NCBI GenBank assembly: GCA_023703615.1
Contig: CP097971.1
Location: forward strand, 336,315 to 400,314
DNA length: 64,000 nucleotides
Direction: 5' to 3'
Origin: SAR86 cluster bacterium
GTDB lineage: Bacteria > Pseudomonadota > Gammaproteobacteria > Magnimaribacterales > D2472
A model generated the notes under the pieces. It was not told the DNA's origin. It ran no database searches and saw only the letters and a list, made by a program, of their open reading frames with translations. Shown piece by piece: positions 1 to 11,760 of the stretch. The stretch's first letter is position 1, and every line of letters starts with the position of its first letter. Position numbers and translations under genes: made by a program.

Positions 1-153
1 GTTGAAAAGTCTGGTGCCTTCTATAAATTAGATGGTGAAACTATTGGTCAAGGCAAGGTTAAGGCCAGCATGTTTCTTAAAGAAAATGCTAAGATTAGAA
101 ACAAACTTGTAAAAGAAATTCGATCTTCATATATCACCTCTAATTCAAAATAA
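1..153 (+). CDS. recA: RecA recombinase, C-terminal end only
   Basis: The window opens inside a reading frame that runs to a TAA at 151-153. The 50 visible residues begin VEKSGAFYKLDGETIGQGK and match the end of the RecA core, where E. coli has a similar KAGAWYSYKGEKIGQGK stretch, followed by the helical C-terminal region. RecA is the DNA strand-exchange protein of homologous recombination and SOS induction. The tail after this motif is short and lacks the strongly acidic end seen in E. coli. recX, often next to recA, is not downstream. Only the last sixth of the gene can be judged. Confidence 0.9.
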   Translation, partial: VEKSGAFYKLDGETIGQGKVKASMFLKENAKIRNKLVKEIRSSYITSNSK

Positions 154-5248: not shown

Positions 5249-6142
5249 ATGCTATCAAGCATTGCTGAAAAAATATATTGGCTTTCAAGATATATAGAAA
5301 GAGTAGAAAATACATCAAGACTAATTAATGTGAATTCCGATCTACTTTTAGATATACCTCATGATGAATCAAATGATTTAAAGCATTTAATTCAAATCAC
5401 AGGCCATATAGAAAATTTTAAAAAACCTAATTATAAAGAAAATGTATTTTTCTTTTTAATAGAAGATGAAACCAATCCGTCATCAATAAAATTTTCTCTT
5501 GAAATGGCAAAAATGAATTCAAGATATCTTCTTACAATGCTACCAAAATCTGCATGGGAACAATTTAATAATTTATACACAGATTTTACTATTTCAAAAA
5601 AAATGAGGAGAAATAGTGATGATCTCTATCAAATCATTCGAAATTCTCAAAGATTTTTTGCTATTATTTCTGATGGAATGCAGAGAAATAATGTATTTAA
5701 TTTTATTAAACTAGGTAGATTTATTGAAAGGGCGGACATGTTATCAAGAATTATTGAAGATCAAATCTTAAGAAAGGAAACTTATGTAAACAAATATTAT
5801 CAAAATCTTCAATGGAGCAGCGTCTTGAGATCAATAAATGGATATGAATCATTCAAGTCTATAAACAAAGATAACTTAAATCAGGAGATAGTTTTAAAAT
5901 ATATAATTATGGAAAGATTATTTCCAAGATCATTAAAATACTGTGAAAATAAACTGCTAGAAGTTTTAAAATATTTACCAAGATCTAAAAAAATACTAAA
6001 CACTTCTCGGGCTTTATTGAAAGATTTTTCAAACAATAATTTTTATAAAAACGATAAGAAAATTCTAAAACTTCTAGATGACTTTCAATTAGGTTTAATT
6101 AAATTGGATAAAGAAATACACGAGAGATTTTTTATATATTAA
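5249..6142 (+). CDS. Alpha-E domain protein (COG2307)
   Basis: The 297-residue, mainly helical protein begins MLSSIAEKIYWLSRYIERVENTSRLI, the diagnostic start of alpha-E proteins (IYWLGRYxERAE in most members). RMRRNSDD-like, GRFIERADMLSRIIEDQ and YESF segments follow the family pattern. Alpha-E proteins almost always accompany circularly permuted ATP-grasp enzymes and are predicted to work with them, although no reaction is proven. The ATG follows the ATP-grasp stop after one base, so translation is probably coupled. The stop overlaps the convergent proS stop by four bases. Confidence 0.85.
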   Translation: MLSSIAEKIYWLSRYIERVENTSRLINVNSDLLLDIPHDESNDLKHLIQITGHIENFKKPNYKENVFFFLIEDETNPSSIKFSLEMAKMNSRYLLTMLPKSAWEQFNNLYTDFTISKKMRRNSDDLYQIIRNSQRFFAIISDGMQRNNVFNFIKLGRFIERADMLSRIIEDQILRKETYVNKYYQNLQWSSVLRSINGYESFKSINKDNLNQEIVLKYIIMERLFPRSLKYCENKLLEVLKYLPRSKKILNTSRALLKDFSNNNFYKNDKKILKLLDDFQLGLIKLDKEIHERFFIY

Positions 6143-7416
6143 TTTTTAAAGAAATCTAATATTGTTTTAATATCATCAATTGGATTCACAGAATTTTTGC
6201 CATTTCTACCTAATAATTCAATCTCCTTGTTTTTAAGAAAATTTTTACCAATAATTATATTTAGAGGAATACCTATAAGTTCTGAATCTTTAATTTTAGC
6301 TCCGTATCCGTCTTTTCTATCATCTAGGATAACCGAATAGCCCATTTCACATAATTCTTGATATAAATCATTTGCAGCAGATGTAATTTTTTCATCCTTA
6401 TTATGACCAATTGAAATTATGTTTATATCAAATGGAGCAATACTATGTGGCCATATAATTCCCTTTTCATCGTAGTTTTGCTCTATAGCAGCAGCAACTA
6501 ATCTAGAAACTCCAATGCCATAACAGCCCATAAAGAGCGTTGACTTTTGCCCATCTGAATTCAAAACACTAGCATTCATTGATTCTGCATAAAGCTTACC
6601 TAATTTAAAGATATGTCCAACTTCAATTCCTTTTTTAACTTGAATAACTCCGTTACCATCAGGTGATGGTTTACCGTTAAGAGAATTGATGTCTTCATCA
6701 TCTTTTAGTAGTAATTCTGTATTAATTGCAAATTCTGATGAATCACTTATTGCTATCGAATCTTCACCATTTTCAGCAAGAACGTGAAATTCTTCTGAGC
6801 TATCACCACCAATTGCACCAGAGTCTGCTTTAGAAATCTTAAAATCTAGACCAATTCTATTCAATACTCTTTTATATGTGTCTCGCATTGACAAATATGT
6901 TTCTTGAAGAGACTCTTCATCTATATTAAAACTATATGAATCTTTCATTAAGAATTCTCTGCCTCTCATAATTCCATATCTTGGTCTCACTTCATCTCTA
7001 AATTTAGTTTGAATTTGATATATATTTAAAGGTAGCTCTTTATAACTCTTAATGTTATCTCTAATAATATCAGTGATAATTTCTTCATGGGTAGGGCCAA
7101 GACAAAAATTTCTTTGATGCCTGTCTTGAATTCTAAGCAATTCAGGACCCATTTTTTCCCATCTTTGAGTTTCTTCCCATAGTTCTTTTGGCTGAACCAT
7201 AGGCATAAAGACCTCTTGAGCTCCAGAAGCATTCATTTCTTCTCTAACAATATCCTCTACTTTTCTGAGAACGCGAAGTCCAATTGGAAGCCAAGAATAA
7301 ATTCCTGATGCTACTTTGCGTATCATCCCAGATCTAAGCATTAGTTTATGACTAACTATTTCAGCTTCTTGCGGAGCGTCCTTTAGCGTAGGCAATAGTA
7401 GCTTTGAAAATAACAT
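6139..7416 (-). CDS. proS: Prolyl-tRNA synthetase lacking the INS editing domain
   Basis: It charges tRNA-Pro. Class II motifs are present: motif 1 around WLPIGLRVLRKVEDIVREEM, motif 2 FRDEVRPRYGIMRGREF, and motif 3 GCYGIGVSRLVAAAIEQ, followed by an anticodon-binding domain with IIIGKNFLKNKEIELL. The flanking sequence is of the E. coli type, but the protein has 425 residues instead of about 570. Between FAINTEL and KKGIEVGHIFKLG lies only a linker of about 30 residues where the roughly 180-residue INS domain that deacylates Ala-tRNA-Pro normally sits. Alphaproteobacterial enzymes also lack INS. Editing must be absent or supplied in trans. Start ATG 7416 is divergent from the next gene. Confidence 0.95.
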   Translation of the reverse strand: MLFSKLLLPTLKDAPQEAEIVSHKLMLRSGMIRKVASGIYSWLPIGLRVLRKVEDIVREEMNASGAQEVFMPMVQPKELWEETQRWEKMGPELLRIQDRHQRNFCLGPTHEEIITDIIRDNIKSYKELPLNIYQIQTKFRDEVRPRYGIMRGREFLMKDSYSFNIDEESLQETYLSMRDTYKRVLNRIGLDFKISKADSGAIGGDSSEEFHVLAENGEDSIAISDSSEFAINTELLLKDDEDINSLNGKPSPDGNGVIQVKKGIEVGHIFKLGKLYAESMNASVLNSDGQKSTLFMGCYGIGVSRLVAAAIEQNYDEKGIIWPHSIAPFDINIISIGHNKDEKITSAANDLYQELCEMGYSVILDDRKDGYGAKIKDSELIGIPLNIIIGKNFLKNKEIELLGRNGKNSVNPIDDIKTILDFFKN

Positions 7417-7751: not shown

Positions 7752-9518
7752 ATGAAATCTCATTATTGTGGTGAAATTACCTCTTCTAATCTGAAGGAAG
7801 AAATAACAATTTGCGGATGGATTCACAGAAGAAGAGATCATGGAGGTGTGATTTTTCTTGACATAAGAGATATCAGGGGAATATGCCAAGCAGTTGTAAA
7901 TCCTTCAAATAAAAAATCTTTTGAATTAGCAGAATCAATTAGAAATGAATATGTCGTTCAGATTTATGGAGTTGTAAGGAAAAGGCTTGAAGGCACAGTT
8001 AATAAAAATATGTTTACGGGTGAAATAGAAGTAGAAGTTGAAAATATAAATATATTAAGCAAAGCAAATACTCCAGTATTTCCAATTGATGAATATCAAG
8101 AGGTTAATGAAGATGTGAGATTAAAAAATAGGGTACTAGATTTAAGAAGACCAGAAATGAATGAAAGAATTATCACTAGATCAAAAATTACATCTTTAGT
8201 AAGAAATTATTTAGATAAGAATGAGTTCCACGAAATTGAAACACCAATACTTACCAAGGCAACGCCGGAAGGTGCACGAGACTATATTCTTCCAAGCAGG
8301 GTTCAGCCTGGAAGCTTTTATGCTTTACCTCAGTCACCTCAATTATTTAAGCAGCTCTTGATGATCGGTGGTTTAGATAAGTATTATCAAATTGCAAGGT
8401 GTTTTCGAGATGAAGATTTAAGAGCTGATAGACAACCCGAGTTTACTCAAATAGATATAGAAGCATCTTTTTTAAGCCAAGAAGAAATAATGGACATTAG
8501 TGAAAAGATGATAAAAAAAATTATCAAAGAGTTTTGTAATGACTCATTGAAGAAATTTCATATCATGGATTGGCATGATGCAATGGAGGGTTATGGATGT
8601 GATAAGCCTGATCTAAGAATTCCTCTGAACCTTGTTGATATATCAAATAGTGTTAAAGATGAGGAATTTAAAGTTTTTTCAGAACCTGCAAAGAAAAAAA
8701 ATTGTAGAGTAGTAGCACTTAAAGTGCCTAATGGTAACTCTTTATCTAGAGGACAAATAGACGACTATACAAAATTTGTTTCAAAGCTTGGCTCAAAGGG
8801 CCTTGCTTATATAAAAGTTAATGATGTAAATGACTTAGAAAATGGTATTCAGTCACCGATATTAAAATTCTTAAAACCACTAACAATTTCAAATATATTT
8901 AAAGAATTAGAAGTTCAAACAGATGATTTAATATTTTTTGGTGCAGGCTCAGAGTCTGTTGTTAATTTATCAATGAGTAGTCTAATAAAAAAACTTGGAG
9001 AAGATTTAAAGCTGTTTACATCAAAATGGGCACCATGTTGGATTATAAATTTCCCAATGTTTGAAAAAAATAATGATGGCAATATAACACCACTTCATCA
9101 TCCCTTTACTTTGCCAAAATGCTCAAAAAAAGAATTAGAAGAAAATCCAGAAAATTCTATTGCTTATGCATACGATCTTGTATTAAATGGTTATGAAATT
9201 GGGGGCGGTTCTCTAAGGATATATGATAAAGATATGCAACAGGCAATTTTTGATATTCTTAAAATTTCTCGAGATGAAGCAAACACCAAGTTTGGTTTTT
9301 TATTGAAAGCACTAACCTCAGGATGTCCACCTCATGGGGGTATAGCATTTGGTCTAGATAGAATAGTAATGCTAGTAACAGATACTAATAATATAAGGGA
9401 TGTCATAGCTTTTCCTAAAACACAAAGCGCTACATGTCTATTAACTGATGCTCCGAGCAAAGTCGAACAGGAACAACTTGAAGACTTAAAAATTGTAAGC
9501 ACTCATAAGGAAGAATAG
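7752..9518 (+). CDS. aspS: Aspartyl-tRNA synthetase, probably non-discriminating
   Basis: 588 residues, the full bacterial size. An N-terminal OB fold ([15 protein letters not shown]), the class II core with [20 protein letters not shown], an inserted GAD domain, and motif 3 [14 protein letters not shown] are all present. His30 in RRRDHGG, and the glycine in [11 protein letters not shown], match the Pseudomonas-type enzyme that charges both tRNA-Asp and tRNA-Asn; the E. coli discriminating enzyme has RRRDLGS there. If so, Asn-tRNA is made by GatCAB amidation. GGGAATATAA precedes the ATG. yebC follows after three bases. Confidence 0.95.
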
Positions 9519-9521
9519 TTT

Positions 9522-10259
9522 ATGGCTGGTCATTCAAAATGGGCAAACATAAAACATAGAAAAGCAAGGCAAGATGCTTCCAGAGGCAAAGTATGGACAA
9601 AAGTAATAAGAGAAATTACTGTTGCTGCAAAGGACGGACCAGATCCAAATGACAATCCGCGGTTGAGATTAGCATTAGAAAAAGCTAACGCTGCAAACAT
9701 GCCAAAAGACACCATCAAACGAGCTATCGAAAAAGGTTCTGGTACAGGTGATACTGGTTCATTAGAAGAAATTATATTTGAAGGCTATGGACCTGGCGGT
9801 ATCGCTATTCTTGTAGAAACAATGACAGATAATCGCAATAGAACTGTTTCAGATGTGCGACACGCATTTTCAAAATTTGGAGGGAACCTTGGAACAGATG
9901 GCTCTGTTTCATATTTATTTAAAAAACTTGGGCTGATACATATATCAAAAGAATATACAGATGAAAAAATAATGGAACTAGTAATTGAGTCTGGTGCAGT
10001 TGACTATACAGAAGAGGATGAATTTTTTGAAGTAATAACAGATGCAAATGATTTTAATAATGTTCTTGAAACTTTTAAGCAAAAAAGTGTCGGATACATA
10101 AATGCTCAGTTAACTTTAAGAGCTGAAACATACATAAATATTGATCAAGAAATGTCAGAAAAAGTTATAAATATTATGGAATTTATGGATAATCTTGATG
10201 ATGTTCAGGAAGTTCATACTAATGCAGAATTTACAGAAAATTTTGAAACAAAAGGATAG
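9522..10259 (+). CDS. yebC: YebC/TACO1 family translation or transcription factor
   Basis: The 245-residue protein begins MAGHSKWANIKHRKARQDA, the invariant family start, and carries FEGYGPGGIAILVETMTDNRNRT and SYLFKKLG. YebC proteins were annotated as transcriptional regulators; bacterial members have since been linked to relief of ribosome stalling at proline-rich stretches. In most gammaproteobacteria the next genes are ruvC-ruvA-ruvB; here a nuclease-like gene follows after three bases. Confidence 0.95.
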   Translation: MAGHSKWANIKHRKARQDASRGKVWTKVIREITVAAKDGPDPNDNPRLRLALEKANAANMPKDTIKRAIEKGSGTGDTGSLEEIIFEGYGPGGIAILVETMTDNRNRTVSDVRHAFSKFGGNLGTDGSVSYLFKKLGLIHISKEYTDEKIMELVIESGAVDYTEEDEFFEVITDANDFNNVLETFKQKSVGYINAQLTLRAETYINIDQEMSEKVINIMEFMDNLDDVQEVHTNAEFTENFETKG

Positions 10260-10262
10260 ATA

Positions 10263-10688
10263 TTGTCAATCAACTCCAGAAATAAAGGCGCAGCTTTTGA
10301 AAGACAAATAGCCAATGCTTTAATTGACGATTTGAATCTTAAAAATCCTGTCAAAAGAATTTTAGAGCAAACTAGAACTAAAGAATTACCAGATTTGATG
10401 CTAGGAAAATGGTGTATTGAATGCAAAGCATATGGTTCTGGTGCTGAACCTAGACCAGATTGGTGGGAACAGGTTCTTGCATCCTCTAGAGCAAATGGTT
10501 TCAAACCTGCACTTGTTTATAAGTTTAACAATAGACCAATCAAGGTAAGAATTCTGGCATGTTCATTAAATAAACATATAAGCAATAATATGGTTACTGT
10601 AGATCTTTTGTGGCCAGATTTTATTCAAGTATTATTAGAGTTATTTCAAGAGGATATTCAGTTGCATGAGCAAAATTATCAAGTGTAA
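10263..10688 (+). CDS. PD-(D/E)XK nuclease, Holliday junction resolvase-like
   Basis: A 141-residue protein. NKGAAFERQIANAL near the N-terminus (conserved Glu), LPDLMLGKWCIECKAYG (PD followed by ExK) and a basic RPIKVRI segment form a PD-(D/E)XK nuclease core resembling archaeal Hjc and small phage-type resolvases. The start is TTG at 10263: AAAGGA at 10251-10256 gives a six-base spacing and no upstream ATG exists. It lies between yebC and ybgC, exactly where ruvC-ruvA-ruvB stand in related genomes, so a replacement role in resolving recombination junctions is a reasonable inference. A restriction-like or general nuclease remains possible. Confidence 0.7.
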   Translation: MSINSRNKGAAFERQIANALIDDLNLKNPVKRILEQTRTKELPDLMLGKWCIECKAYGSGAEPRPDWWEQVLASSRANGFKPALVYKFNNRPIKVRILACSLNKHISNNMVTVDLLWPDFIQVLLELFQEDIQLHEQNYQV

Positions 10689-11076
10689 TGATTTAAACAT
10701 CAAAATTTATGTTGAAGATACTGATTTTCAAGGAGTGGTATATCACTCAAATTATTTAAAGTTTTTTGAAAGATCAAGATCAGAATTTTTAGAAAAAAAT
10801 AATATTTCTCAAAAAAAACTTATAACTTCCGGTAATGCCTTTGTAGTCAAAAGTATTGAAGTTCAATATTTAGCTTCAGCAAAATTAGGCGATGAGGTTA
10901 TTGTTGAGTCAAATGTCGAAAAAATTTCAAATGCTAGATTGCTTTTTCACCAAAAAGTTTTTGAAGCCGAGAAAAACAGTGATTTAGTAAATGGTAAGGT
11001 TGAAGTTTGTTTTGTAGATCTTTCTACAAAAAAACCACAAAAGTTCTCAGATGATTTATTATTAATTTTTAAATAG
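10666..11076 (+). CDS. ybgC: Acyl-CoA thioesterase YbgC, Tol-Pal associated
   Basis: A hotdog-fold protein of 136 residues. IYVEDTDFQGVVYHSNYLKFFERSRSEFL carries the catalytic Asp20 and His27 of the 4-hydroxybenzoyl-CoA-like thioesterase family. YbgC hydrolyses short acyl-CoA and acyl-ACP and has been linked to phospholipid metabolism near the Tol complex. The ATG lies inside the preceding nuclease gene (23-base overlap). It is the first gene of the tol-pal cluster. Confidence 0.92.
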   Translation: MSKIIKCNDLNIKIYVEDTDFQGVVYHSNYLKFFERSRSEFLEKNNISQKKLITSGNAFVVKSIEVQYLASAKLGDEVIVESNVEKISNARLLFHQKVFEAEKNSDLVNGKVEVCFVDLSTKKPQKFSDDLLLIFK

Positions 11077-11085
11077 GTAATAATT

Positions 11086-11760
11086 ATGGACGATATTTCT
11101 GTACTAAATCTTTTTATAGAAGCTGGATTGGTTGTTAAGTTAGTAATGATTATTTTATTAATAGCTTCTCTTTTAACCTGGATTGTAATCTTTGAAAGAT
11201 ATAATTTTTTTAGAGATTTAAAAAAAACTAATTCTGATTTTTTAAAAACTTTTTGGAGTGGTGGCGATTTAAATAAATTATATGCAAAAACAGAGAATTC
11301 CAAAAATGTAGAATTTGGAGTAACAAATGTTTTTAAAAATGCTTTTAAAGAATTTAATCAATTAAAATTAGATAGATCTATTAATGAATTTGATTTAGAA
11401 AGCATCAATAGAGCGATGAGAGTTTCTATAACAGCAGATGAAGAGGTTATGAGTAAACATTTATCATTTCTTGCAAATGTAGGGTCGGTGAGTCCCTATA
11501 TTGGTCTACTTGGAACTGTTTGGGGAATAATGACTTCATTTCAGGGCCTTTCTGATGCAACTCAGGCTACAATTAATGCAGTTGCTCCTGGAATTTCAGA
11601 GGCTCTTGTTGCAACGGCTCTTGGATTATTTGCAGCTATTCCTGCTGTTCTTGCATTCAATAAATTTACTTCAGAGCTTGAAAATATAAGTCAATCAACA
11701 GTTATTTTTTCTGAAGAGCTCGCAAGCATTTTTTATAAAGAGACCCTTAGGAAAAAATGA
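11086..11760 (+). CDS. tolQ: TolQ, proton-channel subunit of the Tol-Pal system
   Basis: 224 residues with a first membrane helix at about 18-38, a cytoplasmic loop, and two later helices in VGSVSPYIGLLGTVWGIMTSF and GISEALVATALGLFAAIPAVL, the MotA/TolQ/ExbB signature. With TolR it converts proton flow into force on TolA to constrict the outer membrane during division. The stop overlaps tolR by four bases (ATGA). Confidence 0.95.
   Translation: MDDISVLNLFIEAGLVVKLVMIILLIASLLTWIVIFERYNFFRDLKKTNSDFLKTFWSGGDLNKLYAKTENSKNVEFGVTNVFKNAFKEFNQLKLDRSINEFDLESINRAMRVSITADEEVMSKHLSFLANVGSVSPYIGLLGTVWGIMTSFQGLSDATQATINAVAPGISEALVATALGLFAAIPAVLAFNKFTSELENISQSTVIFSEELASIFYKETLRKK

Follow-up and report, generated by a model that had tools for sequence, protein, structure and literature searches.

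A phage-type PD-(D/E)XK nuclease, predicted to act as a stand-alone Holliday junction resolvase, occupies the place of ruvCAB in SAR86

In SAR86, a small PD-(D/E)XK nuclease fills the ruv slot of genomes that have no RuvABC yet carry RecA. The explanation we consider likely is that a phage-derived, stand-alone, Hjc-like junction resolvase displaced RuvABC in place in an ancestor of SAR86, the cleavage of junctions being inferred. RuvAB and a resolvase belong to the near-universal core of bacterial recombination (PMC1193525), and SAR86 is among the most abundant bacteria of the surface ocean (PMC11582366). The order-wide swap of RuvABC, repeated at the equivalent locus elsewhere, bears on the question of whether powered branch migration is needed. 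In the literature searched, no paper joins SAR86 with ruvC or the Holliday junction.

The stretch of DNA analysed here (the window) comprises 64,000 nucleotides of a SAR86 genome of 1.23 Mb that consists of one contig (G000:C1:336315-400314). The features on which the argument rests are the following.

1..153, plus strand: 3' end of recA, the full gene extending upstream of the window (tblastn match)
7752..9518, plus strand: aspS, upstream anchor of the slot (aspS-yebC-nuclease order)
9522..10259, plus strand: yebC/TACO1, left neighbour of the ruv slot (Pfam PF01709, PF20772)
10263..10688, plus strand: nuclease of 141 aa, PD-(D/E)XK (PF24608 / phrog_244), predicted stand-alone Holliday junction resolvase (open reading frame, profiles, fold)
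10666..11076, plus strand: ybgC-type 4HBT thioesterase, right neighbour of the ruv slot (Pfam PF13279, coordinates)
11086..11760, plus strand: tolQ, start of the tol-pal cluster, which follows ruvB in most sampled Gammaproteobacteria (shared position)

The nuclease gene starts with a TTG codon 3 bp past the yebC stop, and its 3' end overlaps the ybgC start by 23 bp. The initial annotation, made from sequence alone, had proposed the order yebC, 141-residue reading frame, ybgC and tolQ, which the coordinates confirm, and had taken yebC-ruvC-ruvA-ruvB-ybgC-tolQ to be the gammaproteobacterial norm. Judged from the surroundings of ruvB in 20 genomes of the class that carry RuvB, the latter holds as well: ybgC or tolQ lies immediately 3' of ruvB in 16 of the 20, and 11 show the full order of yebC-ruvC-ruvA-ruvB followed by ybgC or tolQ. 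The ancestral content of the slot is ruvC-ruvA-ruvB. A separate observation concerns a class II tRNA synthetase on the other side of aspS (6139-7416, minus strand), only 425 aa long and ProS by size and context; Pfam gives its core and anticodon-binding domains only, and the editing insertion is possibly missing.

The absence of the ancestral genes from SAR86 was established by profile searches, with positive controls for RuvC, RuvA and RuvB (E. coli, Caulobacter and others) that matched each time. RuvC was detected in none of the 107 genomes of the family and none of the 203 genomes of the order, 40 of which are at least 90% complete; neither RuvA_N nor RuvB_C was found in any of the 107 family genomes. 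Across the class, sampled evenly, 340 of 369 genomes have RuvB_C; it is absent from the four SAR86 genomes of that sample, which belong to three families. Four AAA+ proteins of the window's genome do match RuvB_N, which alone is a poor marker of RuvB; they were rejected because the C-terminal domain of RuvB is absent, and the one that was read further is DnaX-like. The claim that ruvC, ruvA and ruvB are all missing was therefore upheld for the window's genome and its family, and for RuvC across the whole order. An intact ruvABC elsewhere in the genome, which would have refuted the displacement, was sought and not found.

One objection is that ruvABC only seems to be absent because the genomes are incomplete or divergent, many being MAGs or SAGs of 55-95% completeness. 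This explanation is all but excluded, since the RuvC count of 0/203 includes the 40 genomes of at least 90% completeness as well as several in a single contig, and since reading of the site itself showed the nuclease in place of the ruv genes. Moreover, the closed isolate genome HIMB1674 is likewise devoid of several recombination and repair markers, which are systematically missing in 732 SAR86 genomes (PMC11582366). The nuclease swap probably accounts for part of these 'missing' recombination markers.

The nuclease was found in 94 of 107 family genomes and in 180 of 203 order genomes, covering all 22 genera and nearly always as a single copy. Most of the 23 genomes without a copy are incomplete, two being at least 90% complete; the gaps were not inspected individually but are compatible with genome incompleteness. 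The order aspS-yebC-nuclease-(ybgC)-tolQ-tolR is kept at every locus read, in four families. In one of these families (f4; loci L240, L241 and L242) the site gave no ybgC match and tolQ follows the nuclease directly. Between near relatives dN/dS is about 0.01-0.07, so purifying selection on the nuclease is strong; one pair was uninformative, as it shows almost no changes.

These data bear on the possibility that the nuclease is a selfish or defensive enzyme (restriction, anti-phage) that came to lie in the locus by chance after an unrelated loss of ruvABC. In its favour, the relatives are mostly phage genes and defence systems often include PD-(D/E)XK proteins. Against it, no PADLOC defence model matches the nuclease, no methylase or partner gene adjoins it in the window, it is kept order-wide as one copy in one place at the low dN/dS given above, and the slot was filled independently in the RuvB-less family f42 described below. 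We regard this alternative as very unlikely.

As for the identity of the protein, the initial annotation had recognized an Hjc/phage-resolvase-like core, a claim upheld by family profiles, profile-profile comparison and fold. The nuclease meets Pfam PF24608 (PDDEXK_15, 'Phage putative PDDEXK endonuclease') with 40.1 bits and an E value of 4.7e-10 (cut-off 27 bits), PF24608 itself being a merely putative endonuclease family. It also matches phrog_244 (E 9.2e-13), labelled 'RusA-like Holliday junction resolvase'. The RusA part of that label is unsupported, as a search with E up to 10 reported no RusA model (PF05866) and the predicted fold is of the PD-(D/E)XK type; the name was merely inherited. 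Other resolvase profiles gave nothing: the Pfam Hjc profile PF01870 left the nuclease unmatched at E up to 10, the RuvC profile PF02075 did not match, no Pfam model for RecU was reported, and no NCBIfam model matches.

Conservation was examined in an alignment of 49 sequences, 12 from SAR86 and 37 viral. Invariant in all 49 are R6, K8, G9, E13, R32, Q36, D44, E53, K55, Y57, W67, W68 and Q70, and R14 is likewise invariant or nearly so. The constellation is that of the three-part resolvase motif published with a Glu in part I, an Asp in part II and a Glu plus Lys in part III (PMC8805305), which the nuclease carries; E13, D44, E53 and K55, Hjc-type residues common to SAR86 and its phage relatives, are predicted to form the active site.

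PDB sequences yielded no meaningful match to either a single-sequence or a profile search, so the structure of the nuclease was predicted. The AlphaFold2 model, built from the 49-sequence alignment, has a mean pLDDT of 87 and a pTM of 0.84. Compared with solved structures by Foldseek, its best matches are archaeal Hjc/Hje chains, and in VIA-align Hjc and Hje take the top eight rows, led by 1gef (Z 10.6, 2.7 A over 102 residues). Lower rows hold SPARDA nucleases and a Sulfolobus protein (Z 8.2-8.4), RecU (about 6) and, lower still, restriction enzymes. A best match to a restriction-type nuclease, which would have spoken against the proposal, was looked for and not obtained; Hjc stands well above the restriction enzymes. 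Similarly, hhalign of the nuclease against four Hjc/Hje sequences gave 94.9%, with KGxxxER, R, D, IExK and KF aligned in register. Because its sequence does not place the nuclease in the Pfam Hjc family, our claim is that the nuclease works like Hjc, not that it is an Hjc; in the absence of junction cleavage data this remains an inference. It gives the large, unnamed phage nuclease family PF24608/phrog_244 a predicted function.

The fold as such does not settle the substrate. The nuclease might instead be a phage-origin branched-DNA or flap nuclease serving general repair or replication, with junctions resolved by YqgF/RuvX or dissolved by a RecQ-type helicase and topoisomerase. YqgF/RuvX was once proposed as a resolvase, and it is present. 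Further support comes from the fact that a PD-(D/E)XK fold alone leaves the substrate unfixed, and that, compared with bacterial resolvases, those of viruses are described as the more promiscuous (PMC3864405). On the other side, the ruv slot was filled twice independently and each of the closest solved folds belongs to a junction resolvase, restriction enzymes ranking below them. YqgF, for its part, accompanies RuvC or RecU in most genomes, and according to a survey no resolvase activity had been shown for it (PMC1193525). We therefore hold the general branched-DNA nuclease to be unlikely. Under the preferred reading of a junction resolvase, some activity on other branched DNA is still probable by analogy, since such viral enzymes are often more promiscuous than RuvC.

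The kinship with phages is shown by hundreds of viral contigs that carry relatives of the nuclease. The closest viral relative (51% identical; L136 5995-6414) is encoded on a phage contig with lysozyme and virion genes, and in the tree this protein stands beside the SAR86 proteins with weak support. The L136 copy does not belong to a replication block; its neighbours are a large putative tail/stabilisation protein on one side and, on the other, a virion protein bearing LysM. In addition, one SAR86 genome, G095, contains a prophage (G095:C4; L048 8504-18923) with a second copy of the nuclease, 38% identical, just upstream of a primase-helicase and with terminase genes further along. A phage origin of the chromosomal nuclease is the simplest and the likely reading, the direction of transfer being unproven.

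The displacement appears to have a counterpart outside SAR86. PF24608 occurs in 11 of the 369 genomes of the class sample, and seven of these carriers are without RuvB: four from SAR86, two from family f42 (G240 and G486) and one from family f145 (G343). For the last three the status rests on the RuvB search, RuvA and RuvC not being covered there. In both f42 genomes a different phage-type PD-(D/E)XK protein of 104 aa sits exactly between yebC and ybgC-tolQ. It reaches 19.9 bits against the Pfam Hjc profile PF01870 (cut-off 21.1) and is nested within a set of phage proteins in the tree. A single clade for the SAR86 and f42 proteins was rejected (p-AU 0.001, with a short alignment and long branches). 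On this evidence the slot was occupied by a phage-type nuclease twice independently.

The 111-aa nuclease of G343 lies outside the ruv slot, among housekeeping genes (L263 6440-6775, G343:C1) of a gammaproteobacterial genome of 1.1 Mb. It shares 83% identity with a widespread protein of marine phages, and the gene may be a very recent acquisition. Around the nuclease of the four RuvB-positive carriers, most of the scanned neighbours are phage genes for RecT, helicase, primase, portal or tail; in G356 only an HNH endonuclease was seen among them. Carriage of PF24608 is associated with the absence of RuvB (Fisher p 2e-6, or 0.008 with lineages collapsed), values that serve as a guide only because the genomes are not independent.

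The proposal of the initial annotation that a resolvase had been displaced by a non-orthologous one is supported by the order-wide occupation of the slot, the f42 repeat and the retained recA, and several known systems help to place it. The archaeal Hjc/Hje enzymes (1gef of Pyrococcus furiosus, 2wcw of Archaeoglobus and 1ob8 of Sulfolobus) share the fold (Z 10-10.6 over about 100 residues) as well as the order and identity of the E-R...R...D...E-x-K residues, and are small single-domain enzymes that act without RuvAB, as proposed here for SAR86. In contrast to them, the SAR86 nuclease is only about 20% identical in sequence and does not match PF01870; it is encoded on a bacterial chromosome, has phage kin and bears extra C-terminal helices. 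Hjc_15-6 of the Thermus phage Tth15-6 is a phage-encoded enzyme with an archaeal-like fold and an E-(S/P)D-E-x-K motif, and its cleavage of junctions has been shown experimentally (PMC8805305). It is a gene of a thermophile's phage, whereas the gene for the SAR86 nuclease is chromosomal, has been kept vertically and occupies the ruv slot; the two were not compared directly. The phage nucleases of PF24608/phrog_244 belong to the same family as the SAR86 protein, up to the 51% identity noted above, and lie in replication, recombination or structural blocks, while the SAR86 gene is chromosomal and order-wide. RuvC shares the genomic position and the presumed job but belongs to the RNase H-like superfamily. 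RecU of Firmicutes is also a PD-(D/E)XK resolvase replacing RuvC (PMC1193525), with a fold at Z of about 6 to the SAR86 nuclease; it works alongside RuvAB and as a rule not in the ruv slot (PMC1193525), whereas SAR86 has no RuvAB. The exchange of RuvC for RecU with RuvAB kept was already known (PMC1193525); new are the loss of the whole RuvABC, the order-wide substitution in place by a phage-type enzyme, its independent repeat, and a clade that is also without RecG.

This last point follows from the rest of the recombination pathway. RecA is kept: the gene (G000:C1, about 335487-336437) encodes a protein 65% identical over 317 aa to that of E. coli, with a Pfam match at E 9e-142. As recX (by Pfam) and recR are present in the window's genome too, junctions should form. 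RecG frames of about 690 aa were found in families f2, f3 and f4 and in genera g2, g5, g6, g7 and g10. With a full RecG query, RecG was not found in the window's genome or in g3, g4, g8 and g9, where weak matches were rejected as confined to the helicase domain of frames of about 1000-1100 aa, the size of Mfd. Having neither RuvAB nor RecG, the window's clade (genera g1, g3, g4, g8 and g9) is without both classical branch-migration motors. The suspected loss of a motor is thereby confirmed for RuvAB and, in this clade, extends to RecG. E. coli has a third branch-migration system, RadA (PMC4786428). In the roughly 70% of the window's genome that was examined, neither a full RadA nor a full RusA turned up, RusA being sought with one BLAST query. 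A 23% match to RadA at L321:760-1305 was too weak to count.

In the mechanism we propose, the single-polypeptide PD-(D/E)XK resolvase took the place of ruvC-ruvA-ruvB in the SAR86 ancestor. RecA would make the junctions, and RecG would move them in most SAR86 genera; in the window's clade they may be moved by RecA, by RadA (its presence untested) or by spontaneous branch migration before cleavage. By analogy with Hjc, the nuclease would recognize the four-way junction by its shape as a homodimer and introduce paired, Mg2+-dependent nicks through E13, D44, E53 and K55, with no need of RuvAB for loading. Dimer, metal, junction specificity, independence of RuvAB and the role in vivo are all inferred.

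A bolder reading, to which we lean without much margin, is that recombination in genera g1, g3, g4, g8 and g9 ends on one Hjc-like enzyme without RuvAB or RecG, and that phage resolvases took over the very place of RuvABC on two or more occasions in streamlined Gammaproteobacteria. If true, the ruv slot would be a site at which phage genes repeatedly displace those of the host. In the survey of PMC1193525, just two genomes had RecA and no RuvAB, and both kept RecG; a free-living clade that has RecA and neither RuvAB nor RecG directly tests the need for powered branch migration. As a minor observation on the genes kept, recX of the window's genome (L288 1115-1552, minus strand; G000:C1 about 781115-781552) lies far from recA and adjoins dnaX.
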